This document shows, piece after piece, positions 17,560-34,034 of a stretch of DNA of 64,000 nucleotides. The DNA comes from Bacteroidota bacterium (lineage in GTDB: Bacteria; Bacteroidota; Bacteroidia; Bacteroidales; UBA4417). A program made the position numbers and the translations under genes. Numbering within the stretch: position 1 is the stretch's first letter; every line of letters begins with the position of its first letter. The notes beneath the pieces were generated by a model. It was given only the letters and a program-made list of their open reading frames with translations. It was not told where the DNA came from and did no database searches. Location: positions 1-64,000 of the forward strand of contig JACAAZ010000001.1 of assembly GCA_013376995.1 (NCBI GenBank), in the 5' to 3' direction.

Positions 17560-18747
17560 TCAGATGAACCTGGTTTTTACTTCCTTGAGGAATTTCTCCT
17601 CCAGGAGGCGGGCTATACGTTTCACTACTGTGCGTCTTATCTCAAGTTCAACCGGCAGGCTTGGGTCCTGGTGGGCAATGTTTATCCGGGTGCCTATGAT
17701 AAAGTGAATCTCATCGCTTTCGAGCAGCATCCTGACTATCTGGTCAGCAGGGCCCTTTCCCAGTTTGTATTTTTGAGAATAATCCTTGAGTATCTGGGCA
17801 ACTTTTCCAAGAGTAAGAATGCCCTCTGTTATAAGGTCGATTCCCTCCATAAAGGAAACAGGCGGCAGATCGGGGTCATCAAACTCAAAGCTGTCAATGA
17901 TCGGCTGGTTCAACTCGCGGGAAATAATATCCCCGGTCGTTGCCCCGCATAATATTTTTTTTCCGTCGAAAGTCCTTACGGCATCACCCAAAAGCACATC
18001 ATTCACTTCTTCATAGGGAGGTCCAGTGCAAAGCAGTAATTTCCTTGGCTCCCTGAAATATATAACTGCACAACTGGTGTCATCCTTGGGATGGTAATTG
18101 TCGTTCAGATTGGCAATATTTACCACTTTGGATGCCAACTGCTGAGCTGAAATTGTGGAGTCGTTATGCACGAGTTCCAAAACATAGGTCTCCATATTAT
18201 CATTTCCCCATCCAAACGGGTATTTATTGCTACCCATTCCCGACTGTGGTACTCCATCGGAACAAACCACTATCCGGTCTTCCTTCTTATGCTTAAAAGT
18301 GCAGGTGCGAAGTTCCTTTCCTGAGTTTTTCTCGGAATCAAGAATGATGTTCTGCCAGCCCGGGTTAAATAACTTATGTTCCCTTATGATTGCAGCCTGT
18401 GGATTATCATATTCGAGGATGCGGGTTTCACCATCTACTTCAATATCGATGATGGTAAAGGTTGAATAGCTCATCTGCCGTTCGCTGCATACTGGAAGTG
18501 TGTTCATTATCAATTCCGCGATCCTGTTCACTTCCTTATGCTCTTCCGTAAAATTGAGCGCCATGGTTGCTGTAAGGGTCGATAACATGCTAGCCTTGAC
18601 ACCATGGCCCATGCCATCCGAAAGCACAACAATGATCCTGTTCTCTTCGTGGATCCTGCGGCTCAGGAATTTATCACCACAAATCCTCTCCAGGTCATGA
18701 TTCTTTTGGACGACATTTACCTCAACATAAAACTGATTGTCGGTCAT
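17560..18747 (-). CDS. SpoIIE-type PP2C phosphatase linked to sensory hydrogenase
   Basis: 395 residues, cytoplasmic. The N-terminal ~230 residues are a PP2C/SpoIIE phosphatase domain with metal-binding signatures VVLSDGMGHGVKAS, DRIVVCSDGV and DDTSCAVIYF. About 165 further residues follow, beginning LLLCTGPPYEEVND, which I cannot assign to a named domain. It is the third gene of a leftward operon after a [2Fe-2S] ferredoxin and a PAS-containing HydS-like protein (46-bp gap). HydDB-type classifications describe phosphatase-linked sensory [FeFe]-hydrogenases (group C3), and this pairing fits. The likely role is to turn an H2 or redox signal into dephosphorylation of a target protein. The target is unknown and no anti-sigma partner is visible nearby. 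Confidence 0.85.
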   Translation of the reverse strand: MTDNQFYVEVNVVQKNHDLERICGDKFLSRRIHEENRIIVVLSDGMGHGVKASMLSTLTATMALNFTEEHKEVNRIAELIMNTLPVCSERQMSYSTFTIIDIEVDGETRILEYDNPQAAIIREHKLFNPGWQNIILDSEKNSGKELRTCTFKHKKEDRIVVCSDGVPQSGMGSNKYPFGWGNDNMETYVLELVHNDSTISAQQLASKVVNIANLNDNYHPKDDTSCAVIYFREPRKLLLCTGPPYEEVNDVLLGDAVRTFDGKKILCGATTGDIISRELNQPIIDSFEFDDPDLPPVSFMEGIDLITEGILTLGKVAQILKDYSQKYKLGKGPADQIVRMLLESDEIHFIIGTRINIAHQDPSLPVELEIRRTVVKRIARLLEEKFLKEVKTRFI

Positions 18748-18793
18748 GATATTAGCTTGAAATTCAGAATTGCCGGTTATTTATAATTGAGGT

Positions 18794-20662
18794 CTATTCT
18801 TTCGGTGTATTCCCTGCACGGTGGGATTCAATGATCGAATTAAGCATTTTTTCAGTATTGGAAGCTCCTTCGCCCAACAGGAAAGCTATTTGCTGAACCA
18901 GTTCCAGGTTCTGATCAATTACTTCGGTAACCCGGCTTATAACTTCTTCCTTTCTGACTTCCGGCATATACATATCCCTGACAACTCCTCCAACGATCTT
19001 ATTCTTCTTGATGCTGAATATGGTAACATTGAAAAGTTTGTCTTCAAAATGGACATCCCTCCCCAGCACATCCTCAGCACTGGTCAATACGTAGGAAAAC
19101 AATTTGTAAAACTGGAAGGGCAGAAGCGATTTTAGATCTGCTCCAATAAGACCTGGTATGATGTCGTTGATTTCCTCTGCTTCGCTTCCTAGAATCGTGA
19201 TAAAGCTTTCGTTTGAACCGATGATCTTCAGGTTTTCATCCACAATCACAACCGCTGTAGGAAGCTTGCGAAGCATAGTCTGGTTGGTTTCCAGTGCGTC
19301 CTGAGCGAGCTGTTTTTCATGCAATGCCCTTTTTTCTGACTCCTGCAGCGCTTGCTGGGTTCTGGCTAATTTGTCGTTGGTTACTTTGAGTGTGCGGATA
19401 TACTCCTGCTTGCTTTTCAACGAGTGCATTATACACATGTCAGTGCGGGCAATCCCGTTGGCAACCGCAGATGCGAAATCCCTGCAACTTTCATAGCCAC
19501 ATGCCCTGCATCCCAGGTTTTCGCCTTCTTCATGCTTTTCAATGATCTTGAGGATCTCTTCTACTTTTTCTTCCGAAGGAGTTGGCAAGCGCTGATCATC
19601 AGGAACGAAAGAACGCTTAAGGTCAAGGACCCTGAATTTTTTAATGTCGTCATTCCATTTGGCCATATTGAATTTCTTCAGCCGCTTGTTGGCATATTCC
19701 GCAACAAGTGTATGCCTCCTGAACTTCTTTCCTCCGGGGGAAGTCCCGGGACCCATGATACACCCTTCACAATAGAACACATTGAAATGCTTCCTGATAA
19801 AGTCAATGCTGTCATCAAACTGCTTAATAGCACTCATTATTTCTTCTCTTCCGTCAACTGTAACCAGGCTGCCAGAGAGAATATCCTCACTTAGCCCACT
19901 GGCCTGGAGGATACCATTACTTACCGGGAAAAGAGAGCCTTTGTATCCCAGGGGTTCATCAAATTCGGAAAACTCAATGGTGCTAGCCTTGATCCCGAAC
20001 TCTTCAAAAAGCTCCCTAAGCTCGGTAAAAGTGAGAACTGCGTCAACCTTTCCATCCCCATCAAAGCGATGGGCTTCATCCTTTGCAGCTATGCATGGGC
20101 CTATATATACGACCTTGATGTCAGGCCCGTAGAGTTGTTTCATCACCTTGGCGCTGGCAATCATGGGCGTTACAATAGGGGCAAGGTTCTCAATAAGTTG
20201 AGGGTAATATTTTTCAACCAGTGAAACAATAGGAGGACAATTTGCCAGGATATAATATTTGCCGAGGAAGTTGGATATCAATTCATTGTATTCCCTAGCA
20301 ACCAGGTCAACCCCGAAAGATGATTCGTGTACGTAATCAAAGCCGGTCTCCTTGATCATTCTTACAAATTTGCGATAATCCGTAATGTCTTCAAATTCAC
20401 CTGAGATACTGGGACCGACAACAGCAACAACCTTTGAATCAGAGCGAATCAACTGACGTGCTTCTTCCTTGGAATCATAAAAGAGGATTGCTCCAGGACT
20501 GCAAACTGAGATGCAGGAGCCACAACCGATGCATCTTTCAGCTACAATGCGGGGATAATCATCACTGTTGCGAAGCTCGATTGCTTTCACTGGGCATATC
20601 CGGATGCAGGCATAACAGGCCTTGCATTTATCATCATCAATGAACACTAAGGGTGATTTCAT
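18794..20662 (-). CDS. hydS: Sensory [FeFe]-hydrogenase with PAS domain (HydS-like, group C)
   Basis: 622 residues, cytoplasmic. Two [4Fe-4S] ferredoxin motifs (Cys13-16-19-23, Cys44-47-50-54) are followed by an H-cluster domain (about 75-345). A four-Cys motif (Cys385, 388, 393, 410) probably holds another [4Fe-4S] cluster. Then come a coiled coil (about 415-455), a PAS domain (about 458-560) and a C-terminal helix. H-cluster motifs are altered: LANCPP (Cys142) replaces TSCCP, so the proton-relay cysteine is Asn141; IGPC (Cys190) replaces MPC; CEGC (Cys298, Cys301) is CX2C rather than CX3C. Such changes mark sensory rather than catalytic enzymes. It lies between the ferredoxin (18-bp gap) and phosphatase genes and likely reports H2 or cluster redox state to the phosphatase. 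Confidence 0.88.
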   Translation of the reverse strand: MKSPLVFIDDDKCKACYACIRICPVKAIELRNSDDYPRIVAERCIGCGSCISVCSPGAILFYDSKEEARQLIRSDSKVVAVVGPSISGEFEDITDYRKFVRMIKETGFDYVHESSFGVDLVAREYNELISNFLGKYYILANCPPIVSLVEKYYPQLIENLAPIVTPMIASAKVMKQLYGPDIKVVYIGPCIAAKDEAHRFDGDGKVDAVLTFTELRELFEEFGIKASTIEFSEFDEPLGYKGSLFPVSNGILQASGLSEDILSGSLVTVDGREEIMSAIKQFDDSIDFIRKHFNVFYCEGCIMGPGTSPGGKKFRRHTLVAEYANKRLKKFNMAKWNDDIKKFRVLDLKRSFVPDDQRLPTPSEEKVEEILKIIEKHEEGENLGCRACGYESCRDFASAVANGIARTDMCIMHSLKSKQEYIRTLKVTNDKLARTQQALQESEKRALHEKQLAQDALETNQTMLRKLPTAVVIVDENLKIIGSNESFITILGSEAEEINDIIPGLIGADLKSLLPFQFYKLFSYVLTSAEDVLGRDVHFEDKLFNVTIFSIKKNKIVGGVVRDMYMPEVRKEEVISRVTEVIDQNLELVQQIAFLLGEGASNTEKMLNSIIESHRAGNTPKE

Positions 20663-20680
20663 CGTTGGAAGTATCAGTTG

Positions 20681-20941: not shown

Positions 20942-21000
20942 AAATTTCCAGGGAATAAGGTTTCTGGCACTTTTGCTGCCGCCCGAAATCGATTGCAAAA

Positions 21001-21008
21001 CAAAAATA
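21001..21008 (-). promoter_or_regulatory. Possible -7 box for the ferredoxin-hydS operon
   Basis: CAAAAATA on the plus strand reads TATTTTTG on the minus strand and fits the Bacteroidota -7 consensus TAnnTTTG. It is 60 bp upstream of the ferredoxin start. No clear -33 TTTG is seen at the right spacing, so this is tentative. Confidence 0.4.
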
Positions 21009-21050
21009 ATAAAAGTTCCGAATTTGAATTTGATTGTTAGTCGGATAACA

Positions 21051-21068
21051 TTGTTATTTTTTTCACAA
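21051..21068. promoter_or_regulatory. Rex operator in the divergent hydC/ferredoxin promoter region
   Basis: The 18-mer TTGTTATTTTTTTCACAA matches the Rex palindrome TTGTGAA-N4-TTCACAA in 12 of 14 defined positions, with a perfect right half. It sits just upstream of the putative hydC promoter and could also affect the divergent ferredoxin-hydS operon. A rex gene lies in the same island at 29130. Rex releases DNA when NADH is high, which fits induction of an NADH-consuming hydrogenase. Confidence 0.7.
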
Positions 21069-21096
21069 ATAATTTCAATATTAAAAATCTTACCTT

Positions 21097-21104
21097 TATT
21101 TTTG
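21097..21104 (+). promoter_or_regulatory. Putative hydC -7 promoter element
   Basis: TATTTTTG matches the Bacteroidota -7 consensus TAnnTTTG. TTTC at 21073-21076, 20 bp upstream, is a near-match to the -33 TTTG. The element ends 37 bp before the hydC ATG and lies just downstream of the Rex-type operator. Confidence 0.5.
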
Positions 21105-21141
21105 TACTTCTCAAGACAGTCAGATATCCTATCTACATACC

Positions 21142-21603
21142 ATGCCAGTATCAATCGAAGAAGTATTAAACAGGCATAAACAAGGCGTTCCTGAATCTTT
21201 ACTCCCATTGTTGCAGGAATTACAAGACGAGTTTGGCTATTTAAACGAGGAAGCTATTGTGAAAGTTGGGCTGCATTTGCAATTGCCCGCCAGCAAAGTT
21301 TATGGTATAGCAACCTTTTTTGACCAGTTCAGGTTCGTCTCCCAGGGGCATTTTCATCTCCGGGTTTGCCGTGGAACTGCCTGCCATATGAATGGTTCCT
21401 TTTCAGTTTTAAAGGAGGTAGAGAAGATCCTGAAAATCAAGGAAGGCCAAACATCACGTGATGGATTTTTTAGCCTTGAAGCTGTCAGTTGTATGGGTGC
21501 ATGCAGCAATGGGCCAGTAATAAATGTAAACGGGAAATTCTATAATGCCGTAACATTGGCTGGAATTGCTACACTCATCGAGCAACTTCGAAAAATGGCT
21601 TAA
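21142..21603 (+). CDS. hydC: Electron-bifurcating hydrogenase gamma subunit HydC (NuoE-like)
   Basis: 153 residues. The N-terminal helical region (about 1-70, with LQDEFGYLNEEAI and KVYGIATFFDQF) is followed by a thioredoxin-like [2Fe-2S] domain with Cys76, Cys81, Cys117 and Cys121. It matches HydC of trimeric HydABC and NuoE of complex I. In bifurcating hydrogenases it is part of the electron-transfer network around the HydB flavin. It is the first gene of the hydCBA operon, 14 bp before hydB. Expression is probably under Rex control through the operator at 21051-21068. Confidence 0.93.
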   Translation: MPVSIEEVLNRHKQGVPESLLPLLQELQDEFGYLNEEAIVKVGLHLQLPASKVYGIATFFDQFRFVSQGHFHLRVCRGTACHMNGSFSVLKEVEKILKIKEGQTSRDGFFSLEAVSCMGACSNGPVINVNGKFYNAVTLAGIATLIEQLRKMA

Positions 21604-21617
21604 ATCAACCTCTTGCA

Positions 21618-23549
21618 ATGGACGATAAGGAAATTCTGATCAATGAAGTGCTTCCGGGAAAATCAACCATCCTGGAGAAACAAGTACTCGACAGGCTCGC
21701 AACCCTCAGGAATGATAAGATCACAAGGCCGGTTATTTATATTGGTACCGGAACCTGCGGAATGGTGGCTGGTGCCGGTGAAACACTTGCAGCTACTCAA
21801 AAATATATTGAAGATAACCACATACAGGCCAGGATTATTGAAGTCGGTTGTATTGGATTGTGCTCATACGAACCTGTAATCGATGTTCAGCTCCCCGGGA
21901 AAGCCAGGGTGTCATTCAGGAATATTTCTGCTGAAAAGGTTGAGTCCCTTTTGGATGACGTATTTAACGGTGAGATTCCCAAGGACGATGTTATCGGGCA
22001 ATTTACAAATGCCTTGCACGACCCATGGGATGGAGTTAGCAGTATTGAAAAGCTTCCGTTCTTCGTTAATCAGCATCGTATAGTCCTTGACCAATGCGGG
22101 CGCATTGATCCTGGTTCTATAGAGGAATATATTGCGCGGGGCGGTTACCAAACCTATTTGAAGTGCATAAGGAATTATACATCTGATAAGATCTGCGAAC
22201 TGATCGATGAGAGCGGTTTGCGCGGCAGAGGTGGCGGAGGCTACAATACCGGTAAAAAATGGATCGTAGCCAATAACACGGTCAGTGATCAGAAATACCT
22301 CATCTGCAATGCTGCCGAAAGCGACCCGGGCGCGTTTATGGACAGGGCTCTTATTGAAGGAGACCCGCATCTCCTCCTTGAAGGTGTTGCCTTGGCTGCT
22401 TATGCAATTGGTGCTACCAGGGCATATATTTATGTCATGGCCGAATACCAGAAAGCGTATAACAGGCTTAAAACTGCCATCGACAAACTAAAGCAATACT
22501 CACTCATTGGCTACAATATCTTCGGAAGTGGTGTTGACCTGCAGATAATGCTTGTTCAGGGCCCCGGAGCATTTGTTTGCGGTGAGGAGACTGCCTTAAT
22601 TAAAAGCATTGAAGGTAAAAGGGGAATGCCGGAACCCAAGCCTCCTTTCCCCGCAATTGAAGGTTTGTTCAAACGGCCAACCGTTGTCAACAATGTTGAA
22701 ACGCTGGCCAATGTCCCTTACATCTTGAAGAACGGGCCTCAGAAATTTAACACCATCGGTACAGCTAATTCCAAGGGCACTAAAATGTTTGCCCTTACAG
22801 GAAAGACAGTTATTACAGGCTTAGTGGAAGTCCCAATGGGGACGATCCTCCGCGATATCATTTATAAGATTGCAGGCGGAATCCAGGATGGAAAGGAATT
22901 TAAGGCAGTTCAGATCGGAGGCCCCTCAGGAAGTTGTATTCCACAACAGCAGCTTGACCTGCAGGTAGATTACGAATCACTCTGGAATGCCGGGGCTATA
23001 ATGGGATCCGGGGGAATGGTGGTGATGGACGAAAACACCTGCATGGTTGACATGTCGAAGTTCTTCATGAACTTCCTGAACAAGGAAAGTTGCGGGAAAT
23101 GCATTCCTTGCCGGGAAGGTACACGCCGAATCCATGAGATACTTGAAAATATTACGCGAAGGCCTTCAAGCGAAACTGGCCATGAAACCCTGGAACGTTT
23201 CAAAGGGATCATGCAGCTTGAAGGACTCTCGGAAGTAATAAGGGATACTTCCCTTTGCGGTCTTGGTCAGACTGCCCCCAATCCACTAATATCAGCACTC
23301 ACCTGGTTCAGGGATGAGTTCGAGGAGCATATTTTTGATCGCAAATGCAGGGCCGGGGTCTGTAAGGAATTAAGAGTATTCTACATTGATGTGGATAAAT
23401 GTACAGGTTGCGTTGCCTGTCTCAGGAAATGCCCTACCAACGCCATTGTTGGTCAGCCAAGACAACCTCACTTCATTGTTGAAGACAAGTGTATTGGCTG
23501 CGGAATGTGTTTCGATGTTTGCAAATTCGTTGCTGTCATGGTGAAATAG
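21618..23549 (+). CDS. hydB: Electron-bifurcating hydrogenase beta subunit HydB (NuoF-like)
   Basis: 643 residues, cytoplasmic. The N-terminal thioredoxin-like [2Fe-2S] region has GTGTCG and CIGLC. A NuoF core follows (about 160-540) with the NADH/FMN loop GRGGGGYNTGKKW, ESDPGAFMDRALIEGDPH and GAFVCGEETALI, then an SLBB-type segment. A [4Fe-4S] site is formed by ESCGKCIPCREGTRR and a later CGLG. Two C-terminal ferredoxin motifs (CTGCVACLRKC, CIGCGMCFDVC) complete it. This is the flavin subunit that links NAD(H) and ferredoxin in HydABC enzymes. It lies between hydC and hydA with short gaps, consistent with one transcript. Confidence 0.94.
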   Translation: MDDKEILINEVLPGKSTILEKQVLDRLATLRNDKITRPVIYIGTGTCGMVAGAGETLAATQKYIEDNHIQARIIEVGCIGLCSYEPVIDVQLPGKARVSFRNISAEKVESLLDDVFNGEIPKDDVIGQFTNALHDPWDGVSSIEKLPFFVNQHRIVLDQCGRIDPGSIEEYIARGGYQTYLKCIRNYTSDKICELIDESGLRGRGGGGYNTGKKWIVANNTVSDQKYLICNAAESDPGAFMDRALIEGDPHLLLEGVALAAYAIGATRAYIYVMAEYQKAYNRLKTAIDKLKQYSLIGYNIFGSGVDLQIMLVQGPGAFVCGEETALIKSIEGKRGMPEPKPPFPAIEGLFKRPTVVNNVETLANVPYILKNGPQKFNTIGTANSKGTKMFALTGKTVITGLVEVPMGTILRDIIYKIAGGIQDGKEFKAVQIGGPSGSCIPQQQLDLQVDYESLWNAGAIMGSGGMVVMDENTCMVDMSKFFMNFLNKESCGKCIPCREGTRRIHEILENITRRPSSETGHETLERFKGIMQLEGLSEVIRDTSLCGLGQTAPNPLISALTWFRDEFEEHIFDRKCRAGVCKELRVFYIDVDKCTGCVACLRKCPTNAIVGQPRQPHFIVEDKCIGCGMCFDVCKFVAVMVK

Positions 23550-23589: not shown

Positions 23590-25314
23590 ATGTTTTTCGA
23601 TATAGAAGTTAACGGTAAAACCATCAAGGCCAGGAATGGAGATACTATCCTTTCGGCACTTGAACGCAATGGCATCAAAGTGCCAACGCTTTGCCATATC
23701 GAAAACCTTCCTCCCAATGGAGCATGCCGGATGTGTGTGGTTGAAGTGGAAGGCCGCCAGGCATTATTACCAGCTTGTTCTCACCCCGTTGAGGAATGGA
23801 TGAAAATCAAGACACATTCCCCAAGGGTTGTTAAAGCAAGAAAAACGAATATAGAGTTGCTGCTGAGCAATCATCCCGATGACTGCCTTTACTGCGAAAG
23901 AAATGGTAATTGTGAGCTCCAGCGTTTTGCAGAGGATCTGAATGTCAGGGAGCGCCGGTTCTATGGAAATAAAAATAAGTATAAAACAGACCCTTCCAGT
24001 GCCAGTCTCCTTAGGGATCCAGCAAAATGTATTCTTTGCGGGCGGTGTATACGTATCTGTGAAGAAGTTCAGTCAATAACAGCACTTGATTTTATAGGCA
24101 GGGGAAACAAGATGCAGGTGGGTCCCGCATTCAACAAGGGAATGAACCTCTCAAGCTGTATCAATTGCGGGCAATGTATTCTGGTTTGTCCAACCGGTGC
24201 ACTTACCGAAAAACAACATCCCGGGGAACTCCAGGATGCCCTTCATAATCCTGATATTACAACCATCATTCAATGTTCACCAGCCCTTTCTGTTACACTG
24301 GCGGAAGAATTTGGGCTTCGTGCCGGGAAAGATGTTGAAAACCTGATGTATGCTTCACTTAGGAAACTGGGCTTTGATTACGTTTTCGATTCTTCCTTTG
24401 CCGGGGACCTTTATATTGTTGAACAAGCCGCAGAATTTATTAGCCGCCTCAAGGAAAAGACTCAACTTCCAATGTTTTCGAGCTGTTGCCCGGCTTGGAT
24501 CAAATATGCCGAACAATCAAGGCCATCCATCCTGCCCAATCTTTCGACCTGTAAATCTCCCCAACAAATGATGGGTGCTCTTATCACTGCTCATTTTGGA
24601 ATGGAGAACAACCTGAAGGATGAGGAGATATACTCGGTATCAGCAATGCCTTGTGTGGCAAGAAAGTTTGAAGCACAACGCGAGCAGATGACCCACAAAG
24701 GGATTACGGATGTTGATACGGTTTTGACCACCCGGGAGTTGGCAAGGCTTATCAGGTTAAACGGCATAGATATTCAGCAAGTTGAACCTGAAATGGCTGA
24801 TTTGCCTTACAGGTCAAGGAGCTCATCAGGTAAATTACTCGCAGTTAGCGGTGGTGTTACAGAATCCCTGGTGCGGACCTTGCACTTTATGATTACAGGC
24901 AAAGAGATTACGCAGCTGAAATTCCAGGAATTGCGTAATTCCAGGGGACGTAAAGAGTTGAAGATCAAAATCGGCGAATATAACCTCGGTTTTGCAGTTG
25001 TGAATGGAATTGGAAATGCAAAGGAATTGCTGGATGAAATAGAGAATGGAAGAACCGACCTGCACTATATTGAAGTGATGGCTTGCCCGGGAGGTTGTGT
25101 TAACGGTGGTGGTCAGCCTATTCATTCAGTAGAACTCAATGCTCGAGCCAGGGCTAAGTCTATCTATGAACTGGATGAAAAGGAAGCCGTGAAATTCGCT
25201 CACCGTAATCCTTCACTGATAGCCCTTTATGATGCTTTCCTGGAGAAACCTGTCAGTGAACAGAGCCGGAACCTCTTGCATACATCCTACCAAAACAGGG
25301 AAGTAATGCTCTAA
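23590..25314 (+). CDS. hydA: [FeFe]-hydrogenase catalytic subunit HydA
   Basis: 574 residues, the same length as C. pasteurianum CpI. There is an N-terminal [2Fe-2S] domain (Cys35, 46, 49, 63), a His-ligated [4Fe-4S] site (HPDDCLYC ... NCELQ) and two [4Fe-4S] motifs (CILCGRCIRIC, CINCGQCILVC). The complete catalytic H-cluster domain has SSCCPAW (Cys299 proton relay, Cys300), MPCVARKFE (Cys355) and ACPGGC (Cys499, Cys503). By my count the ligand positions coincide with CpI numbering. The operon with hydC and hydB places it in the group A3 bifurcating type, which makes H2 from NADH plus reduced ferredoxin or runs in reverse. A short helical tail follows. There is no extra C-terminal [2Fe-2S] domain. 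Confidence 0.95.
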   Translation: MFFDIEVNGKTIKARNGDTILSALERNGIKVPTLCHIENLPPNGACRMCVVEVEGRQALLPACSHPVEEWMKIKTHSPRVVKARKTNIELLLSNHPDDCLYCERNGNCELQRFAEDLNVRERRFYGNKNKYKTDPSSASLLRDPAKCILCGRCIRICEEVQSITALDFIGRGNKMQVGPAFNKGMNLSSCINCGQCILVCPTGALTEKQHPGELQDALHNPDITTIIQCSPALSVTLAEEFGLRAGKDVENLMYASLRKLGFDYVFDSSFAGDLYIVEQAAEFISRLKEKTQLPMFSSCCPAWIKYAEQSRPSILPNLSTCKSPQQMMGALITAHFGMENNLKDEEIYSVSAMPCVARKFEAQREQMTHKGITDVDTVLTTRELARLIRLNGIDIQQVEPEMADLPYRSRSSSGKLLAVSGGVTESLVRTLHFMITGKEITQLKFQELRNSRGRKELKIKIGEYNLGFAVVNGIGNAKELLDEIENGRTDLHYIEVMACPGGCVNGGGQPIHSVELNARARAKSIYELDEKEAVKFAHRNPSLIALYDAFLEKPVSEQSRNLLHTSYQNREVML

Positions 25315-25387: not shown

Positions 25388-27418
25388 ATGATGGATGCAA
25401 TTGGACCGGAACTGAACCCTAATGCCGGTCAGGAGAAGAAGCTGGTATTCACGATTAAGGAGAAATGCAGGGTTTGCTTTACCTGTGTAAGGGAATGCCC
25501 GGCCAAAGCAATCCGGATTGCCGGCGGACAGGCCGAGATCATCCCTGATCGTTGTATAGCCTGCGGAAATTGTATTAAAGTTTGCAGCCAGGGTGCCAAG
25601 GTTTTCAGGAAAGAGATAGATCCTGTCCGGAAACTTATAGCATCAGATGAAAAAGTAATTGCCTGCGTGGCTCCCAGTTTTCCTGCCGAATTTGCCGATA
25701 TTAAGGATTATAAGCGACTCGTTGGTATGATAAGGTCGCTTGGTTTCGATCACGTGACTGAAGTCTCTTTCGGAGCTGACCTGGTAGCTAGAAAATACAA
25801 AGACCACCTTAGTCTTGGGCGTCAGGCCATTTCCTCCGATTGCCCCGCTATAGTTTCCTATATTGAACATTACTACCCCGATTTAACCAGCTATATGGCA
25901 GCCGTTGTTTCACCCATGGTTGCCATGGCAAGAGTAGTAAGGAAAGTTTATGGGAAAGAATCCAAAGTCGTTTTTATCGGGCCATGCCTGGCTAAAAAAG
26001 CTGAATCCACTGAAATTGACAATGCTATCACTTTCCGGGAACTACGGGAGATGTTCCAGGAGAGCCGGGTATCACCTACTGCTGTTGAACCTTCCGAATT
26101 CGATCCTCCACTGGGTGGCAGGGGTGCCATCTTTCCCCTTAGCCATGGACTATTAAATACCATGGAGGTTACCGAGGATATTCTAAGCGAAAAAGTTATT
26201 GTAGCAGGCGGAAGGTCCAACTTCCTGGATGCATTGCGTGAATTTGAACAGGGAAACCTGAAAGGCCATCATATACACCTGCTATGTTGTGAAGGTTGTA
26301 TCCTTGGGCCAGGTATGTCCCCTTACCCAAATACTGCCGCTAGCAGCCTGCGTTTTGCAAAAAAAGCCCGCATCATTGCCTATGCCAACCAGAAAATGGC
26401 AGTTCTGGATAAGGAGGAATGGGCTAAAAACCTGGGCGAGTTCGAGAAAATTGACCTTTCCCGTTCATTTACCAGGAAAGACATGAGGATTTCCCGTCCA
26501 AATGCCGAGGAGATCAAAGAGGTACTTTACAGGATCGGGAAATACTCACCGGATGATCATCTTAACTGCGGTACCTGCGGCTATGATTCCTGTGAAGAAC
26601 ATGCTATCGCCGTTATTAATGGCCTGGCTGAAACAGAAATGTGCCTGCCATATACCATAGAACGCTTGCATACCTACATCCGTGAGCTCGACACTTCCAA
26701 TGAAAAACTGGCATCCGTACAGGAGGCTTTGCGGCACTCTGAGAAACTTGCAGGTATGGGACAATTGTCGGCTGGTATAGCTCATGAATTAAATAATCCG
26801 CTAGGGGTTATCACAATGTATAGTAATATCCTGAAAGAAGAGCTGCCAGCTGATAATCCTATGCATAAGGACCTTGACCTGATTGTGGAACAGGCAGACC
26901 GCTGCAGGAAAATTGTTGGGGGACTGCTCAACTTTGCCCGTAAGAACCAGGTAAATGTATCTGATACCGATGTAATCCAACTGGCTGAACATAGCATGAG
27001 TTCTGTAATCGTGCCTTCCGGTATCGATATCCGCTTCTTTAATAAGATAAGTGATCCGATGGCAATGCTGGATTATGACCAGATGACCCAGGTGCTTACC
27101 AATCTCTTGAAGAATGCTATTGAAGCAATGCCCAACGGTGGTGAAATTACCCTTCAAATTAGCGATACAGAGGAACAGGTTGTGTTCAAGGTGACAGATA
27201 ATGGATCGGGCATTGAAAAAGAGAATATGGATAAATTATTCACTCCATTCTTTACTACAAAAGGCATTGGTAAAGGCACCGGCCTTGGATTACCAATCAT
27301 TTACGGTATCGTGAAAATGCATAAAGGTGAAATCTCTGTGCAGTCGAATGCTAATCTTACCAAAGGCCCTACCGGAACTACATTCACCATTACACTACCC
27401 CGGAACAGGATGCTTTAG
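25388..27418 (+). CDS. Sensory [FeFe]-hydrogenase fused to a histidine kinase
   Basis: 676 residues, no membrane segment. It has two [4Fe-4S] motifs (Cys27-30-33-37, Cys56-59-62-66) and an H-cluster-like domain (about 85-340) with SSDCP (Cys152; Asp151 replaces the proton-relay Cys), IGPC (Cys200) and CCEGC (Cys300, 301, 304). A four-Cys motif (Cys394, 397, 402, 419) and a coiled coil (about 425-455) follow. The HisKA domain has phospho-acceptor His466 in AGIAHELNNP, and the HATPase domain has LLKNAIEAMPNGG, DNGSGI and GTGLGL. This resembles the histidine-kinase-linked sensory hydrogenases of group C. It lies 73 bp after hydA and ahead of a receiver protein, so it probably signals H2 or redox state to the downstream regulators. 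Confidence 0.9.
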   Translation: MMDAIGPELNPNAGQEKKLVFTIKEKCRVCFTCVRECPAKAIRIAGGQAEIIPDRCIACGNCIKVCSQGAKVFRKEIDPVRKLIASDEKVIACVAPSFPAEFADIKDYKRLVGMIRSLGFDHVTEVSFGADLVARKYKDHLSLGRQAISSDCPAIVSYIEHYYPDLTSYMAAVVSPMVAMARVVRKVYGKESKVVFIGPCLAKKAESTEIDNAITFRELREMFQESRVSPTAVEPSEFDPPLGGRGAIFPLSHGLLNTMEVTEDILSEKVIVAGGRSNFLDALREFEQGNLKGHHIHLLCCEGCILGPGMSPYPNTAASSLRFAKKARIIAYANQKMAVLDKEEWAKNLGEFEKIDLSRSFTRKDMRISRPNAEEIKEVLYRIGKYSPDDHLNCGTCGYDSCEEHAIAVINGLAETEMCLPYTIERLHTYIRELDTSNEKLASVQEALRHSEKLAGMGQLSAGIAHELNNPLGVITMYSNILKEELPADNPMHKDLDLIVEQADRCRKIVGGLLNFARKNQVNVSDTDVIQLAEHSMSSVIVPSGIDIRFFNKISDPMAMLDYDQMTQVLTNLLKNAIEAMPNGGEITLQISDTEEQVVFKVTDNGSGIEKENMDKLFTPFFTTKGIGKGTGLGLPIIYGIVKMHKGEISVQSNANLTKGPTGTTFTITLPRNRML

Positions 27419-27566: not shown

Positions 27567-27953
27567 ATGAAAAAGAAAATCCTGATTGTTGATGATGACA
27601 TGGACTACCTGTTCCAGATGAAAATGAAGGTTGAACAGATGGGTTTTGAAACAATCACGGCAGAAAGTCAGGCAGAAGCCGAAAAAATTATCCTGGAGTT
27701 CAAACCCGATTTATGTATCCTGGACCTGATGATGGAATCAGACGATAGTGGCTTTGTGCTCAGTTACAAGATCAAGAGACGATATCCTGATGTGCCGATC
27801 ATTATTGCCACTGCGGTCACTGCAGAAACAGGCATGACATTCGATATTCGTGCTGAAGAAAGTAAACGATGGATCAATGCTGATCTGTTCCTCGACAAAG
27901 GAATCAGGAATGATCAACTTCACCGTGAAATCAAAAAACTTCTAAAACTCTAA
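27567..27953 (+). CDS. Single-domain response regulator
   Basis: 128 residues forming one receiver domain: acidic pocket DDD near residue 8, phospho-acceptor Asp in LCILDLMM (about residue 52), a Thr in IIIATAV and a conserved Lys in FLDKG. There is no DNA-binding or output domain. It follows the hydrogenase-kinase after 148 bp and precedes the receiver-kinase gene by 2 bp, so it is most likely a phosphotransfer relay or an output acting on a protein partner. The natural partner is the kinase at 25388, by position. Confidence 0.88.
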   Translation: MKKKILIVDDDMDYLFQMKMKVEQMGFETITAESQAEAEKIILEFKPDLCILDLMMESDDSGFVLSYKIKRRYPDVPIIIATAVTAETGMTFDIRAEESKRWINADLFLDKGIRNDQLHREIKKLLKL

Positions 27954-27955: not shown

Positions 27956-29080
27956 ATGGCCACATTCAAAGTGTTGATCATTGACGATGAACAGGGGATT
28001 CGCGATGGTACAAAGAGAATATTGCAGAATTTCAAGGTTGACTATCCTTTTATGGATGAACAGATTGATTTCCAGATACTCGAAGCCGGAACAGGTACTG
28101 AAGGAATAGAGATCATTGACAAGGATCAGCCTGATATATTATTATTGGATAATAAGCTTCCCGATATACAAGGGGTTGAAGTCCTGGAATATGTAAAAAG
28201 CAAGCATTACGACATCGTGGTTGTGATGATTACCTCGTATGCCTCTCTCGAACTTGCTGTTAAAGCAACACGTGACGGAGCATTTGACTTCATTCCGAAA
28301 CCTTTTACCCCGCAGGAGATAAGGGCTTCCATTGAGAATATTACCAAGCATATCTTCCTCAAGAGGATGACTCAGACCTTAAATAGTACCGGCAAACAGA
28401 TCAGGTTCCAGTTTCTGTCAGTATTGTCGCACGAATTGAAGGCTCCCCTGAATGCCATCGATGGATACCTGAAGATGATCAGGGAAAGGCAGCTTGGCAA
28501 TAGTATAGAGTCATACGATGAGATGATTGATCGCTCTATGGAACGGATCAAGGGGATGAGAACACTGATTCTTGACTTGCTTGACATGACCAAGATTGAA
28601 TCAGGTAAACCAACCCAGAAGTTGCAGGCAATTGATGTAAGGAAGATTGCCCAGTTGTCCATTGATACTATCAGGCCTTACGCTATTCAGAAGGACGTGG
28701 ATATCTACCTGAACAACAGGGAGCCTTTATTCATGAAAGCTGATGCAGGCGAAATCGAGATCATTTTCAATAACCTGATATCAAATGCCGTTAAATATAA
28801 CAAAACGGGTGGAAGAGTGGATATTTTCATTGAAAAGTTACCCGATTTGGTTCGAATGACGGTCTCTGATACTGGTATTGGATTAACTGAAGTGGATAAA
28901 AACAGGATATTTGATGATTTCGTTCGTATCAAGAGCCAACAAACCAGGAATATTACCGGAAGCGGACTAGGCCTTTCCATAGTCAGAAAGATTGTGGATA
29001 TGTACCATGGATCCATCGATGTGCAAAGTATGCCTGAGCAAGGCAGCACATTTACAATCACTTTGTCAAATCCGGATTAA
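27956..29080 (+). CDS. Receiver domain-histidine kinase hybrid
   Basis: 374 residues, soluble. An N-terminal receiver domain (about 1-125, with VLIIDDEQ, phospho-acceptor in ILLLDNKLPD, and FIPKPF carrying the conserved Lys) is followed by a HisKA domain with FLSVLSHELKAPLNAI and a HATPase domain (NLISNAVKYN, DTGIGL, GSGLGLSIV). The receiver-first order suggests it can be phosphorylated by an upstream kinase and then change its own kinase activity. It is 2 bp after the lone receiver gene, hence translationally close. It probably forms a phosphorelay with the hydrogenase-kinase; the final target is not obvious. Confidence 0.88.
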   Translation: MATFKVLIIDDEQGIRDGTKRILQNFKVDYPFMDEQIDFQILEAGTGTEGIEIIDKDQPDILLLDNKLPDIQGVEVLEYVKSKHYDIVVVMITSYASLELAVKATRDGAFDFIPKPFTPQEIRASIENITKHIFLKRMTQTLNSTGKQIRFQFLSVLSHELKAPLNAIDGYLKMIRERQLGNSIESYDEMIDRSMERIKGMRTLILDLLDMTKIESGKPTQKLQAIDVRKIAQLSIDTIRPYAIQKDVDIYLNNREPLFMKADAGEIEIIFNNLISNAVKYNKTGGRVDIFIEKLPDLVRMTVSDTGIGLTEVDKNRIFDDFVRIKSQQTRNITGSGLGLSIVRKIVDMYHGSIDVQSMPEQGSTFTITLSNPD

Positions 29081-29129: not shown

Positions 29130-29750
29130 ATGAAGAAACTCCCCGATAAAACGGTAGAACGCCTAAGTCAATACAGGCGTACCCTTCTGATTGCACTCAG
29201 TAATGGGAAGCATCATATTTTTTCCCATGAACTGGCCGCTATGTTGCATATTACCTCTGTCCAGGTTCGAAGAGATATTATGCTTATCGGTTACTCCGGA
29301 ACACTCAGGCAAGGTTATGATGTAAAGGAGCTGACGGATATTATTGGCAAGATCATCGATAGTAAAGATGGCCAGAAGGTTGCCGTAATTGGGATTGGTA
29401 ACCTTGGGAGGGCTATAATCGGTTATTTCAGCGGTAAGCGTACAAAGCTTTCAATTGTTGCCGGCTTTGATCTTAACCCGGATAAGATTGACAGGGTTTA
29501 TGCAGGAGTATGGTGCTACCATTTTGACAGGATGGCTGATATCATTCAAAAGGAGAATATTAGTATTGCTGTGATTACGGTGCCGGCAAGTGAAGCAACC
29601 GCTGTTGCTGATAAACTAATCCTGGCTGGAATTAAAGGGATACTCAATTTCACTCCCCGTCCGCTCAACGTTCCTTCAAATGTGTATCTTGAAGAGTATG
29701 ATATCATTACCTCTCTTGAAAAGCTGGCATATTTTGTAAAAAAAGTGTAG
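29130..29750 (+). CDS. rex: Redox-sensing transcriptional repressor Rex
   Basis: 206 residues. The winged-helix DNA-binding domain (about 1-80) contains LPDKTVERLSQYRRTLL and HITSVQVRRDI. The NAD(H)-binding Rossmann domain has AVIGIGNLGRAI and the family C-terminal pattern FTPRPLNVP, then SLEKLAYFVKK for the swapped helix. Rex binds its operator when NADH/NAD+ is low and is released by NADH. Putative operators upstream of hydC and hydG point to its targets. It lies downstream of the hydrogenase regulators on the same strand, 49 bp after the hybrid kinase. Confidence 0.94.
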   Translation: MKKLPDKTVERLSQYRRTLLIALSNGKHHIFSHELAAMLHITSVQVRRDIMLIGYSGTLRQGYDVKELTDIIGKIIDSKDGQKVAVIGIGNLGRAIIGYFSGKRTKLSIVAGFDLNPDKIDRVYAGVWCYHFDRMADIIQKENISIAVITVPASEATAVADKLILAGIKGILNFTPRPLNVPSNVYLEEYDIITSLEKLAYFVKKV

Positions 29751-29831: not shown

Positions 29832-30773
29832 ATGCGTGTTTTCCACGATCTTGGAGATCTTATACAAATACCAAACCCGGTGGTTACTACCGGTTCGTTT
29901 GACGGGGTGCATGTAGGGCATAAAGCTATCATCAACCGCATTAACAGGTTAGCCCGGGATATACAGGGCGAAAGTGTCTTGATAACCTTTCATCCGCATC
30001 CAAGGAAAGTTCTTTACCCCGAAACTGCCGGTAAAGATCTTTTTCTGATAAATTCACAACAGGAGAAAATCGAGCTGCTAAGGTCAACCGGTTTAAAGAA
30101 CCTGCTGATCCTGCCTTTCACGGTGGAGTTTTCGCATACAACCTCCATTGAATTTATACGTAATATCCTGGTAAATAAACTGCGCGCCGCCAAGATTGTT
30201 ATAGGATTCAACCACCAGTTCGGCTTTAACAGGGAAGGGAATTTTGAGTACCTCGATGAATTGGGAAAGTTTTATGGATTTGGGGTTGAAGAAATCCCGG
30301 AACAGGATATTCACAATGAAACAGTTAGTTCTACCCTTATCAGGAAGGCTTTGCAGGATGGACGGATACAGAGGGCCAATGCTTATCTTGATCATCACTA
30401 TTTTATGATGGGCTGTTTAAAAGAAGGAAGCCCCGACTTGAAACAAATGGATTTGTCAACCTTTATGCTCACTATTGAAGAAGAATGTAAGCTGGTTCCG
30501 CCGGATGGTGTTTATGCCGTCAGGATTGAAACTGCAGAAACTTCAACGAAAGGGATACTCAATATTAAAAATAGCAGGTACGGCTCTGACCGAAACAAGG
30601 AAGATATACTGATTGAGATGTTCCCTTTCAATAACCAGGATATGCGGAATGAACAGGAGGCTAAAGTTTATTTCGCTAAAAGAGTGCGGGATGAGCTTTC
30701 GTTTGGGGATATCTCTGAATTAAAAATGCAGTTGGATAAGGATCAGGCTACTGTTGATGAGATGATTTATTAA
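29832..30773 (+). CDS. ribF: RibF-like FAD synthetase with degenerate riboflavin kinase half
   Basis: 313 residues. The N-terminal adenylyltransferase half is intact: GSFDGVHVGHKAI, ITFHPHPRKVL, IGFNHQFGFNREGNFE and SSTLIRKAL, the motifs for FMN plus ATP to FAD. The C-terminal half aligns with riboflavin kinase (PDGVYAVRIE near residue 220) but lacks the glycine-rich GRxxGFPTAN motif; the place is taken by SPDLKQMDLSTFML. Kinase activity is therefore doubtful, leaving FAD synthesis as the likely function. It lies between rex and a metallo-hydrolase within the hydrogenase island, where flavin supply for HydB would make sense. Whether another full RibF exists in the genome cannot be seen here. 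Confidence 0.85.
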   Translation: MRVFHDLGDLIQIPNPVVTTGSFDGVHVGHKAIINRINRLARDIQGESVLITFHPHPRKVLYPETAGKDLFLINSQQEKIELLRSTGLKNLLILPFTVEFSHTTSIEFIRNILVNKLRAAKIVIGFNHQFGFNREGNFEYLDELGKFYGFGVEEIPEQDIHNETVSSTLIRKALQDGRIQRANAYLDHHYFMMGCLKEGSPDLKQMDLSTFMLTIEEECKLVPPDGVYAVRIETAETSTKGILNIKNSRYGSDRNKEDILIEMFPFNNQDMRNEQEAKVYFAKRVRDELSFGDISELKMQLDKDQATVDEMIY

Positions 30774-30810
30774 TCAGATAATCGGTAATATGGGCAATCG
30801 AAATGGCAAG

Positions 30811-31631: not shown

Positions 31632-31649
31632 TTGTTAATAAATTCACAA
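31632..31649. promoter_or_regulatory. Rex operator upstream of hydG
   Basis: TTGTTAATAAATTCACAA matches TTGTGAA-N4-TTCACAA at 13 of 14 defined positions. It lies 82 bp before the hydG start and shares the TTGTTA...TTCACAA form of the site at 21051. This supports joint control of the enzyme and its maturase by Rex. Confidence 0.75.
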
Positions 31650-31689: not shown

Positions 31690-31697
31690 TAATTTTG
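31690..31697 (+). promoter_or_regulatory. Putative hydG -7 promoter element
   Basis: TAATTTTG fits the TAnnTTTG consensus and ends 34 bp before the hydG ATG. No good -33 element is visible at the expected spacing. The Rex-type operator lies about 40 bp further upstream. Confidence 0.45.
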
Positions 31698-31730
31698 CTG
31701 TATTGAAAATGGAATTTAACTAGATCAGCT

Positions 31731-33167
31731 ATGATTTTTACTCCGGAAAAATGCCGTATACCTGATCAGCGGATGAAGCCGTTCATCGATGCTGATGAAA
31801 TATGGGAATACCTCAATACCATTCATCCGACTAAGGAGCAAGTGCGTGAAGTTATTGCCAAATCATTGGATAAAAATCGATTATCATTAGCTGAAACCGC
31901 TATTCTTATAAATGCGACAGACCCGGGACTGGTAGAGGAAATCAAGCAAGGAGCCAGGGAACTGAAAGAAAGAGTTTACGGGAACAGGATTGTACTTTTT
32001 GCCCCACTTTATATTGGAAATAAATGTACCAATAATTGCAGCTATTGCGGTTTCAAAGCTTCCAACAAGGAAGCTATACGTCAGACACTGGATGACAAAG
32101 CACTCGTACATGAAGTTGAAGCACTTGAAGAGAATGGTCAGAAGAGACTGATCCTGGTGTACGGAGAACACCCGGACTATTCCCCCGAATATATTGCTCA
32201 TACAGTCAAAGTGGTTTATGGTGTGAAGAAAGGCAATGGTGAGATCAGGAGGATTAATATCAATGCTGCTCCCTTGGATATTGAAGGTTTCAGGATCGTA
32301 AAGGAAGCCAACATTGGTACATACCAAATCTTCCAGGAAACCTATCACCCGGAAATGTATAAGCACTACCACCTGGGTGGAATGAAGAGAAATTTCGAAT
32401 ACCGGCTTACATCCCTTGATCGTGCCCAGGAAGCTGGAATTGATGATGTAGGTATCGGGGCATTATTTGGATTATACGACTGGAGGTATGAAGTGATGGG
32501 ACTTATCCGTCATACAAATCACCTCGAAGCCTGCTACCATGTTGGTCCTCATACAATATCATTTCCCAGGATACAGGAAGCTTCTGCAATTAATTTCGAC
32601 GGGAAATACCGTGTTTCAGATTACGATTTCACAAAACTCGTTGCTATCCTGCGACTTGCAGTTCCTTATACCGGACTGATCCTTACTGCCCGCGAAAATG
32701 CAGCAGTCAGATCAGAAGTTATGCGCTTTGGAGTTTCACAAATCGATGGTGGGACTAAGCTTGAAATTGGAAGCTATTCCGAGAATGTTAATGAAAAGCA
32801 GGACCTGAACAGGGAGCAGTTTCATGTGAATGATTCAAGGTCATTAAATGAGATCATCGATGAGCTTCTCGGAGATGGTTACCTTCCAAGCTTTTGCACA
32901 GCTTGTTATCGCCTTGGGAGAACCGGGGAACATTTTATGGAATTCTCAGTTCCAGGGTTTATTAAACGCTATTGCTCTCCCAATGCCATTCTTACCCTTA
33001 CCGAATACCTCCAGGATTATGCTCCTGAAGCAACAAGGGAAAAAGGGTTTGTCGTAATTGAGAAAAACCTGCAGGACCTGGAATCATCCCATGAAAAAGT
33101 GAATGTGCCCGAAATCAGAAAGCGGATCGAACGTATCAGGGCAGGGGAGAGGGATTTGTATTTCTAG
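31731..33167 (+). CDS. hydG: [FeFe]-hydrogenase maturase HydG (radical SAM)
   Basis: 478 residues, the usual HydG size. HydG cleaves tyrosine to supply CO and cyanide ligands for the H-cluster. The radical SAM motif CTNNCSYCGF (CX3CX2C) is at about residues 101-108. The C-terminal auxiliary cluster region has FCTACYRLGRTGEHFM and YCSPNA, diagnostic for HydG and absent from ThiH. The rest includes INAAPLDIEGF and ETYHPEMYKHYH. Its partners HydE and HydF are not in this window. The Rex-type site upstream suggests shared regulation with hydCBA. Confidence 0.95.
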   Translation: MIFTPEKCRIPDQRMKPFIDADEIWEYLNTIHPTKEQVREVIAKSLDKNRLSLAETAILINATDPGLVEEIKQGARELKERVYGNRIVLFAPLYIGNKCTNNCSYCGFKASNKEAIRQTLDDKALVHEVEALEENGQKRLILVYGEHPDYSPEYIAHTVKVVYGVKKGNGEIRRININAAPLDIEGFRIVKEANIGTYQIFQETYHPEMYKHYHLGGMKRNFEYRLTSLDRAQEAGIDDVGIGALFGLYDWRYEVMGLIRHTNHLEACYHVGPHTISFPRIQEASAINFDGKYRVSDYDFTKLVAILRLAVPYTGLILTARENAAVRSEVMRFGVSQIDGGTKLEIGSYSENVNEKQDLNREQFHVNDSRSLNEIIDELLGDGYLPSFCTACYRLGRTGEHFMEFSVPGFIKRYCSPNAILTLTEYLQDYAPEATREKGFVVIEKNLQDLESSHEKVNVPEIRKRIERIRAGERDLYF

Positions 33168-33507
33168 GAATTCGGCAATTTGATAATTAGATACTATGTC
33201 CTTAAGCTGACGGATGGAAATTTGGAAATGGATTCAAATTGGATGCTGGTCATTTAGGACAAAAGACAAAAGGAAAAAGACAAAAGACAAAAGGAAAAAG
33301 ACAAAAGACAAAAGGAAAAAGACAAAAGTAAAAAGACAAAAGTAAAAAGACAAAAGACAAAAGATAAAAGTAGGAAGTCGGAAGCCGGAAGCCGGAAGCC
33401 GGAAGTCGGAATGCCAAAACCGAACCTTACAATCGCCGAACCCTTCAAACGCCAAACGCCAAACGCCAAACCAATAACCAATAACCAATAACAGATAACT
33501 TTCCCCC
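33168..33507. other. Repeat-filled gap between hydG and the TM1266-type genes
   Basis: These 340 bp contain a GACAAAAG-type array (33257-33370), a GGAAGYCGGAAGCC run (33371-33410), and CGCCAAAC and CAATAAC words (33432-33492). I see no supported gene on either strand; low-complexity minus-strand frames rich in FCLLSFVF are artefacts of the A-rich array. Confidence 0.8.
33257..33492. repeat. Composite short-word array (GACAAAAG, GGAAGCC, CGCCAAAC, CAATAAC)
   Basis: Four successive low-complexity blocks: about 115 bp of GACAAAAG/GGAAAAAG, about 40 bp of GGAAGYCGGAAGCC, then CGCCGAACC/CGCCAAAC units and a CAATAAC triplet. The order of a GACAAAAG array followed by CGCCGAACC-type words is the same as at 5470-5920. 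The array ends 15 bp before the start of the next gene. Confidence 0.9.
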
Positions 33508-33765
33508 ATGACCGAAACCCGCATTCTCGGACTGCTGATTTCCGACCGGATTAAGGAGGCAGGCAAGACGCAACAATTGCTGTCAAATTATTCCAGGCTT
33601 ATTAAGTCGCGACTTGGATTCCATGAATTGAACGACAATGTCTGTTCCAGGGCAGGGATCATCATTCTTCATCTCACCGGGACCAGCCCTGAATGGAAGG
33701 TTTTTGAAGATGAACTCAGGCTGATTGATGGTCTGGAAATCCAGGTTATGTCTTTCGTTTATTAA
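33508..33765 (+). CDS. TM1266-type hydrogenase-associated small protein, copy 1
   Basis: 85 residues forming one ACT-like ferredoxin fold: TRILGLLISDRIKEAGKTQQLLSNYSRLIKSRLGFHELN, then a hydrophobic GIIILHLTG strand. This matches the TM1266 family, found next to [FeFe]-hydrogenase maturases and annotated as a hydrogenase system regulator. There is no DNA-binding motif, so it may bind a small ligand or partner protein. It has Cys47 and lies directly upstream of a paralogue, with nearly no gap (2-11 bp depending on start). Confidence 0.82.
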   Translation: MTETRILGLLISDRIKEAGKTQQLLSNYSRLIKSRLGFHELNDNVCSRAGIIILHLTGTSPEWKVFEDELRLIDGLEIQVMSFVY

Positions 33766-33776
33766 AAGTGGATGAT

Positions 33777-34034
33777 ATGAAAGAACTAAGAATTCTTGGA
33801 GTATATGTTAACGACCGGGTTAAGGAATCCGGCAGGATTCAATCTATTCTTACCAAGTACGGCTGTTCTATCCGGACTCGTTTGGGATTGCATTCCATGG
33901 ATGATCAATATGCTGAGGATAAAGGGCTGATCGTTCTGGAACTGACAGGAGACCTATCCGAATGCCTGAAATTGGAGAATGAACTCCTGGCTATAGAATA
34001 CCTGGAAGTTCAGAAAATGATATTTACAAAGTAA
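33777..34034 (+). CDS. TM1266-type hydrogenase-associated small protein, copy 2
   Basis: 85 residues from the ATG at 33777, chosen because it gives the same length and start as copy 1 (MKELRILGVYVNDRVKESGRIQ); a GTG three codons upstream is possible. It shares the ACT-like pattern with copy 1 (RxLGL, GLIVLELTG) but only about half of the residues. Two adjacent divergent copies suggest a heteromeric pair. It is the last gene of the hydrogenase island. Confidence 0.82.
   Translation: MKELRILGVYVNDRVKESGRIQSILTKYGCSIRTRLGLHSMDDQYAEDKGLIVLELTGDLSECLKLENELLAIEYLEVQKMIFTK

Follow-up and report, generated by a model that had tools for sequence, protein, structure and literature searches.

Two sensory [FeFe] hydrogenases of different predicted output share a recurrent gene island in Bacteroidales

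Organization and recurrence of the island

Two sensory [FeFe] hydrogenases with different predicted outputs flank one divergent promoter region in the hydrogen island described here, which occupies positions 17560-34034 of a window of 64,000 nt (the whole stretch of DNA analyzed, from contig JACAAZ010000001.1 of assembly GCA_013376995.1; coordinates are positions of this window). The genome, from the order Bacteroidales, is 5.05 Mb long and 96.66% complete. The leftward arm comprises, successively, a small [2Fe-2S] ferredoxin (Fd) gene and the genes of the sensor HydS and of a SpoIIE/PP2C-type phosphatase; the rightward arm comprises hydC, hydB, hydA, the gene of the kinase-linked sensor HydK, a receiver gene, a receiver-kinase gene, rex, ribF, a gene at 30790, hydG and two TM1266/CPF_0552-like genes (Table 1). 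The island is made of known protein pieces, and its dual-sensor arrangement recurs in relatives. We tentatively read it, with somewhat less than even confidence, as a recurrent island for H2/redox control that combines Rex gating, a HydK relay and a HydS-PP2C pair set against an RsbW-like kinase and DRTGG proteins encoded elsewhere in the genome. For the study of signal output by sensory [FeFe] hydrogenases, this locus provides a natural side-by-side comparison.

In an order-level sample of 197 genomes, at least 133 encode the hydrogenase domain (H-domain). Among the matches listed, HydK (counted at ≥49% identity) occurs in 65 genomes, window-type HydS in 58 (those with the gene in fetched loci, plus G109, where it is cut by a contig end) and both in 35. 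The two sensors share a contig in at least 27 of the 197 genomes (the window and 26 fetched loci), belonging to 19 families, and lie on separate contigs in the other eight of the 35. Since the gene order recurs in the fetched relatives, it is not due to chance. Contig ends truncate some loci, and others are variants: the arms are about 8 kb apart in L050, the receiver-kinase is missing from L064 and rex from L060, and the ferredoxin was not found in L055, L056 and L063 among the fetched one-contig loci. In L077, L176 and L210, HydK is gone while the receiver and receiver-kinase directly follow hydA, which shows that relay genes may persist where the sensor has been lost.

Scanning GTDB r220 yielded 526 pattern hits, of which 506 encode a HydS relative. 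The best 80 loci, analyzed as a named set that overlaps the first one, come mostly from metagenome-assembled genomes labeled Bacteroidales, Bacteroidetes or Lentimicrobium, with one named strain, Perlabentimonas gracilis M08_MB, whose locus (L194) shows the complete dual arrangement. PP2C follows HydS in 78 of these 80 loci, the ferredoxin precedes it in 70, and a divergent HydK is seen in 52 of the 56 loci having an 8 kb flank. To the preliminary description of this DNA, the integration of three sensing inputs in one Bacteroidales locus looked uncommon; the 27 one-contig loci in 19 families found within the order, together with the 52 divergent loci among the nearest named ones, indicate otherwise.

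Outside the order, a survey of the phylum with HydS residues 1-450 at E ≤ 1e-40, which remote phosphatase-linked sensors may escape, matched 17 of 296 genomes besides that of the window. Four fetched loci from other classes have the order hydCBA-HydK-receiver-receiver/kinase and no PP2C match. On this evidence, the kinase arm seems to be more widely distributed, and the phosphatase arm seems to have been added within the order, although remote forms could be missed. A kinase-only version is also seen in L125-L137 (hydCBA-HydK-receiver, mostly then receiver/kinase), where hydC is often preceded by an extra receiver- or kinase-like gene.

Shorter sensor-like rows outside the HydS count, other than those of G078:C162, G152:C33, G164:C934 and G157:C149 and those past the end of the list, led to 20 fetched regions, many of which are of a second, more distant Fd-HydS-PP2C type whose PP2C is 44-55% and HydS 28-38% identical to those of the window. 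Four of these regions have a PP2C of only 24-32% identity, and some have no PP2C match. The distant type occurs in L228-L231, L233, L235, L236 and L238-L242, some of which have an adjoining extra H-domain-like match that recalls hfsABCD.

Assignment of the sensors and comparison with known systems

HydS has the architecture of group C, namely two N-terminal 4Fe-4S motifs, an H-domain and a C-terminal Cx2Cx4Cx16C motif; its PAS region gives a weak match to PF00989 (19.9 bits, below the cut-off of 22.6). C299 and M353 (CpI numbering) are replaced in the window copy by N and G, as expected for group C. According to the excerpts of the literature on which all comparisons with published systems are based, HydS thus resembles the group C TmHydS of Thermotoga maritima in its domain order and in both altered positions (PMC10055695, PMC8163306). 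HydS is adjoined by a serine/threonine phosphatase and the H-domain of HydK is fused to a histidine kinase, output types that match the HydDB class names C3 (phosphatase-linked) and C1 (histidine kinase-linked), respectively (PMC5037454). However, unlike these reference classes, HydK gives no PAS match at E 0.001 (its Fe-S domain ends at residue 421 and HisKA begins at residue 458). Because this match is missing, we call HydK C1-like rather than a proven C1 member.

A third H-domain sensor, HydD, is encoded on contig C39 and was absent from the preliminary description. Its lack of PAS, the Ser/Thr at position 353 and the C-terminal Cx2Cx4Cx16C motif point to a group D-like class, as judged by domains and residues. 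HydD is similar to the group D TamHydS by the absence of PAS, the Thr at position 353 and the adjoining histidine-kinase-like ATPase (PMC8163306). It differs from it by its surroundings, being flanked by two DRTGG proteins in an operon that follows HydS-PP2C on the same strand in L069 and L070. In a tree of 55 rows, all from this set and with a long-branch warning for the side opposite, HydS and HydK form one clade (99/99) apart from HydD and hydA. Furthermore, the third cluster motif is nearly always C-x2-C in HydS and HydK but C-x3-C in hydA and HydD. Domains, residues and this clade uphold the earlier view of two group C-kind sensors with different outputs beside a bifurcating-type enzyme, whereas the missing PAS match allows only a C1-like status for HydK.

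The leftward arm resembles hfsABCD of Thermoanaerobacterium and the hydS/phosphatase genes of Ruminococcus albus, where a HydS-type PAS sensor (HfsB) and a serine phosphatase (HfsC) stand beside a hydrogenase; deletion of hfsB raised ethanol in five thermophiles (PMC5707799, PMC11837493, PMC6776011). In the island, HydABC takes the place of HfsD/HydA2. The excerpts of the same accounts are silent on any kinase-linked sensor in divergent orientation; HfsA is described there as aligning poorly with known proteins rather than as a ferredoxin such as the one found here. In Vallitalea, C1 and C3 sensors are present in one genome but at separate loci (PMC6163223), whereas the island holds a C1-like and a C3-like sensor together. 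No paper on both sensors in one locus or on cysteine loss in HydS was found in the open PMC literature, as judged by title and start of abstract.

Rex-type operators at the island and on contig C39

The pattern TGTKA-N6-TMACA was searched with dinucleotide shuffles and altered spacers as controls. It is present in 19 of 28 divergent intergenic regions, including that of the window (shuffle mean 0.12, maximum 3; spacers of 2-5 and 7-10 give 0 or 1), and in 57 of 70 regions of an overlapping second set (shuffle mean 0.23; none with spacers of 3-5 and 7-9), these relatives not being independent draws. On contig C39, tandem Rex-type pairs precede DRTGG2 and hydC_c1. Among 300-bp upstream regions, the pattern is found before DRTGG2 (13/23), hydC_c1 (8/11) and the hydC of the locus (23/49). 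It is scarce before rex (5/38), HydS (4/59), hydG (1/29) and hydC_c2 (0/10), and was not found in any of the 281 upstream regions of HydK, PP2C, RsbW, HydD, hydB, receiver, ribF and hydA combined. The operator-like sites on the island and on the C39 operons are supporting evidence for a probable Rex/NADH input, and the NADH input put forward earlier is thus backed by predicted operators in the divergent promoter.

As reported in an excerpt on Caldicellulosiruptor bescii, Rex controls the Hyd hydrogenase and hydG there, with the operator consensus TTGTGAANNNNTTCACAA (PMC6391272). The island differs from that regulon by its operator pair located between two sensor arms and by a hydG site that is not conserved. 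A general control of hydG by Rex was rejected, the pattern being present in only one of 29 hydG upstream regions.

A candidate partner of the phosphatase

The PP2C of the window is the sole SpoIIE match in the whole genome. D25, D44, D164, D222 and D223, which we take to be the metal-site aspartates, are invariant across 42 aligned sequences. A PDB sequence search gave a single weak match, RsbX (E 0.031). The C-terminal region (residues ~230-395; window 17563-18060) is highly conserved, with the stretches GTRINIAHQDP and EIRRT, yet it matches no Pfam model.

In RsbW/RsbU-type partner switching, a SpoIIE-type phosphatase is set against an RsbW-like kinase, with a STAS-domain antagonist. This genome likewise encodes a SpoIIE-type phosphatase and an RsbW-like kinase, the latter in the HydD operon of contig C39 (DRTGG2-RsbW-HydD-DRTGG1-PHP-HATPase). 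Of seven HATPase_c_2 matches in the genome, the RsbW-like one scores 46.4 bits (146-aa frame) and the next 27.6 bits (385-aa frame). Unlike in the known switch, kinase and phosphatase lie on different contigs, and neither STAS (PF01740) nor STAS_2 (PF13466) has a match in this 96.66% complete genome; the same searches were positive in 10 and 7 of 14 control genomes, respectively.

Among the matches listed for 133 hydrogenase-bearing genomes, an RsbW orthologue is present in 44 of the 58 HydS genomes versus 19 of the 75 devoid of HydS (odds ratio 9.3). In 500 draws of one genome from each of 80 families, the odds ratio was 10.3 for HydS-RsbW (median p 4e-6, largest p 2.7e-4), 2.3 for HydS-HydK (median p 0.11) and 0.67 for HydK-RsbW (median p 0.44). 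The result is unchanged in wider HydS sets of 62 or 66 genomes, obtained by adding genomes with only distant-type copies (4, then 8): the HydS-RsbW odds ratio is 9.1-9.2 and, by family, 10.0 and 10.1, compared to 2.0 and 1.8 for HydK. Since HydS-RsbW co-occurrence (9-10) exceeds that of HydS and HydK (about 2) and no STAS match was found, the RsbW-like kinase is a likelier predicted opponent of PP2C than the HydK relay.

Two genomes have the phosphatase and kinase modules together on one strand. L069 (G135) reads Fd-HydS-PP2C-DRTGG2-RsbW-HydD-DRTGG1-PHP, and L070 (G026) has the same order, its PP2C and DRTGG2 being separated by about 1 kb. S35-D36-V37 is common to DRTGG1 (20 rows) and DRTGG2 (23 rows) at ≥95%. 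The RsbW-like kinase and the DRTGG proteins are candidates for the missing target of the phosphatase.

Loss of H-cluster ligands in HydS

All four H-cluster cysteines are present in HydS and HydK of the window. Among 57 HydS orthologues with a length of at least 430 aa, the full set is present in 38, and 19, spread over 12 of 36 families, lack at least one. At the first CEGC position, the ligand-losing sequences have Asn (9), Asp (3), His (2) or Arg (1, with a second loss). A reading by eye of the 80 named loci, which overlap the first set, found Asn or Asp at this position in 17 of the 78 with a legible motif (all but L199 and L181, the latter scored as Cys). Four genomes of two families have lost all four cysteines. 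Their HydS retain both N-terminal 4Fe-4S motifs and Cx2Cx4Cx16C, and the ferredoxin and PP2C genes are retained beside them. Of the twelve accessory cysteines, ten are invariant across 56 full-length HydS, C13 is conserved in 55 and C16 in 47 (most of the others having Ser), compared to 52, 51, 38 and 52 for the H-cluster cysteines. HydK keeps its four cysteines in 51 of 52 rows (51/51 alignable; L082 is not alignable) and HydD in 21 of 21.

The phosphatase-linked sensor thus appears to be losing H-cluster ligands in some relatives while its partner genes stay. Asn, Asp or His might still bind the cluster iron, so single losses do not prove that the cluster is absent; the HydS devoid of all four cysteines are hard to explain other than by a missing H-cluster. 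This loss (19/57) runs counter to the statement, in an excerpt on sensory types, that their H-cluster cysteines are conserved (PMC10055695). The contrast between HydK, which keeps these residues in all alignable sequences, and HydS, which loses them in one third while retaining its partners, would make it possible to separate H2 binding from signalling.

Mapped on the best tree, whose bootstrap had not yet converged, ligand loss requires six changes, four of which well-supported branches make unavoidable. The all-loss HydS are not taken to have arisen independently, as these four rows group together in this tree (60/62), which is compatible with one or two origins. Likewise, no claim is made on an association between ligand loss in HydS and C299 loss in the neighboring hydA (Fisher p = 0.085; the 33 genomes compared are not independent).

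Proposed control and alternatives

The proposed H2/redox control draws on gene content and order, their recurrence, the operator-like sites at both loci, ligand residues, co-occurrence, the single SpoIIE match, the one strong RsbW-like match and the lack of a STAS match. Rex would make expression of the island, and likewise of the C39 operons, dependent on NADH. At low NADH, it would bind and repress the divergent promoter, so that the enzyme and both sensor arms would rise together as reductant builds up, this sign of the response being a prediction. The rightward arm would provide the bifurcating-type HydABC and the kinase-linked H2 sensor; HydK would sense H2 and pass phosphate to the single receiver and to the receiver-kinase. 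HydS, with its Fe-S chain and PAS region, would read H2 and/or the redox state of the ferredoxin, either of which could reduce it, and set the activity of PP2C, which may strip serine phosphate added by the RsbW-like kinase encoded beside HydD. The shared substrate of phosphatase and kinase would most likely be the DRTGG proteins of C39.

Several points weigh against this proposal. Nine of the 28 divergent intergenic regions have no Rex pattern, as do all or most regions upstream of hydC_c2, hydG and rex, and the sites are pattern matches from which we infer binding. No DNA-binding output follows the relay within the window. Co-occurrence is not interaction. Furthermore, 14 of the 58 HydS genomes have no RsbW orthologue and 13 of these have no DRTGG match either (G075 has one); RsbW/DRTGG is therefore not the sole target of PP2C.

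An alternative that we consider unlikely, but worth keeping in view, is that the sensors are independent and share only a promoter, HydK reading H2 for genes elsewhere and HydS-PP2C reading redox for another target, so that their neighborhood would reflect co-expression. Among the matches listed, HydS occurs without HydK in 23 of 58 genomes and HydK without HydS in 30 of 65, the four loci from other classes have HydK modules devoid of PP2C, some HydS genomes have neither RsbW nor DRTGG, and further Fd-HydS-PP2C modules stand away from HydK. However, the divergent arrangement recurs in 19 families, and operator-like sites are common to the island and the RsbW operon.

Slightly less probable still, and likewise unlikely, is a bolder form of the proposed control in which HydS, having become independent of its H-cluster, would sense ferredoxin/Fe-S redox state and drive a STAS-less PP2C/RsbW switch on the DRTGG proteins (through the conserved S35), HydK keeping direct H2 sensing. 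We regard as distinctly improbable that HydS is not an H2 sensor anywhere in this clade, its H-domain being a leftover scaffold and only the ferredoxin/Fe-S redox state being read. The 19 ligand-losing sequences, the four all-loss ones and the stronger retention of accessory than of H-cluster cysteines are in line with it, but 38 of 57 HydS, including the window copy, retain all four cysteines, substitutes might still bind iron, and the accessory C16 is itself absent in 9 of 56. Finally, the idea in the preliminary description that phosphatase and relay oppose each other on one target, in favor of which stands the divergence of both outputs from one promoter, now seems very improbable. Different residues are phosphorylated, and phosphate of a His-Asp relay is not an expected substrate of a serine phosphatase; HydS-HydK co-occurrence is weak (by family, odds ratios of 1.8-2.3 with median p of 0.11-0.26, versus 10.3 for RsbW), and the RsbW-like kinase is a better chemical opponent.

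Gene content of the island and minor observations

All genes named in the preliminary description were found where it had placed them, and the divergent promoter, given there as 200 bp, has this length. Two genes between rex and hydG had not been mentioned: ribF, a neighbor often kept in relatives, and the gene at 30790, a candidate metallo-beta-lactamase-fold protein as read by eye. The ferredoxin start is our choice, its open frame extending to 21208.

Table 1. Coordinates of the features of the island (strand: +, rightward; -, leftward)
Feature	Coordinates	Strand	Evidence
PP2C/SpoIIE-type serine phosphatase, 395 aa	17560..18747	-	PF07228 49.5 bits
HydS: two N-terminal 4Fe-4S, H-domain, C-terminal Cx2Cx4Cx16C Fe-S domain, weak PAS; C3-like, phosphatase-linked	18794..20662	-	
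Small thioredoxin-like [2Fe-2S] ferredoxin, 86 aa	20681..20941	-	PF01257 40.4 bits
Divergent intergenic region, 200 bp	20942..21141		Gap between arms
Rex-type operator, first of tandem pair	21035..21050		Pattern TGTKA-N6-TMACA
Rex-type operator, second of tandem pair	21052..21067		12/14 consensus positions
hydC (NuoE-like)	21142..21603	+	PF01257 145.5 bits
hydB (NuoF-like, FMN/NADH, Fe-S)	21618..23549	+	PF01512 151.1 bits, PF10589 92.8 bits
hydA, group A; motifs SSCCP, MPC, MACPGGC	23590..25314	+	TIGR02512 442.8 (cut-off 405.95)
HydK: two 4Fe-4S, H-domain, Cx2Cx4Cx16C Fe-S domain, HisKA and HATPase	25388..27418	+	Domain matches
Single-domain response regulator	27567..27953	+	PF00072 57.1 bits
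Receiver-HisKA-HATPase hybrid (receiver-kinase)	27956..29080	+	Domain matches
rex, NADH-responsive repressor	29130..29750	+	NF003995 198.6 (cut-off 126)
ribF-like riboflavin kinase/FAD synthetase	29832..30773	+	NF004160 211.9 (below cut-off 295)
Rex-type operator upstream of hydG	31633..31648		Pattern; not conserved (1/29 hydG upstreams)
hydG, H-cluster maturase	31731..33167	+	TIGR03955 488.4 (cut-off 312.15)
TM1266/CPF_0552-like gene a	33508..33765	+	NF052672 74.2 (below cut-off 85); TIGR03959 23.2 (below cut-off 60.8)
TM1266/CPF_0552-like gene b	33768..34034	+	NF052672 87 (cut-off 85)

The association of a group A HydA with HydB and HydC points to a HydABC of the bifurcating type, the hydA product scoring 721.1 against NF040763 (A6), below its cut-off of 765. 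HydF is also present in the genome. Besides HydD, contig C39 carries two further H-domains, those of the hydA of extra hydABC sets. The locus-type hydA keeps C299 in 36 of 50 rows, compared to 28 of the 28 readable rows of two other hydA classes. The 14 locus-type hydA devoid of this proton-transfer cysteine (L042, L047, L049, L050, L052, L053, L054, L055, L058, L060, L062, L063, L077 and L121) give the impression of likewise evolving towards slow catalysis or a sensory role. In hydA_c1 (L007:16120-17913, contig C39), TSCSP replaces TSCCP, the cubane-ligand position C300 being Ser in 15 of 16 rows, while the other motifs look canonical.

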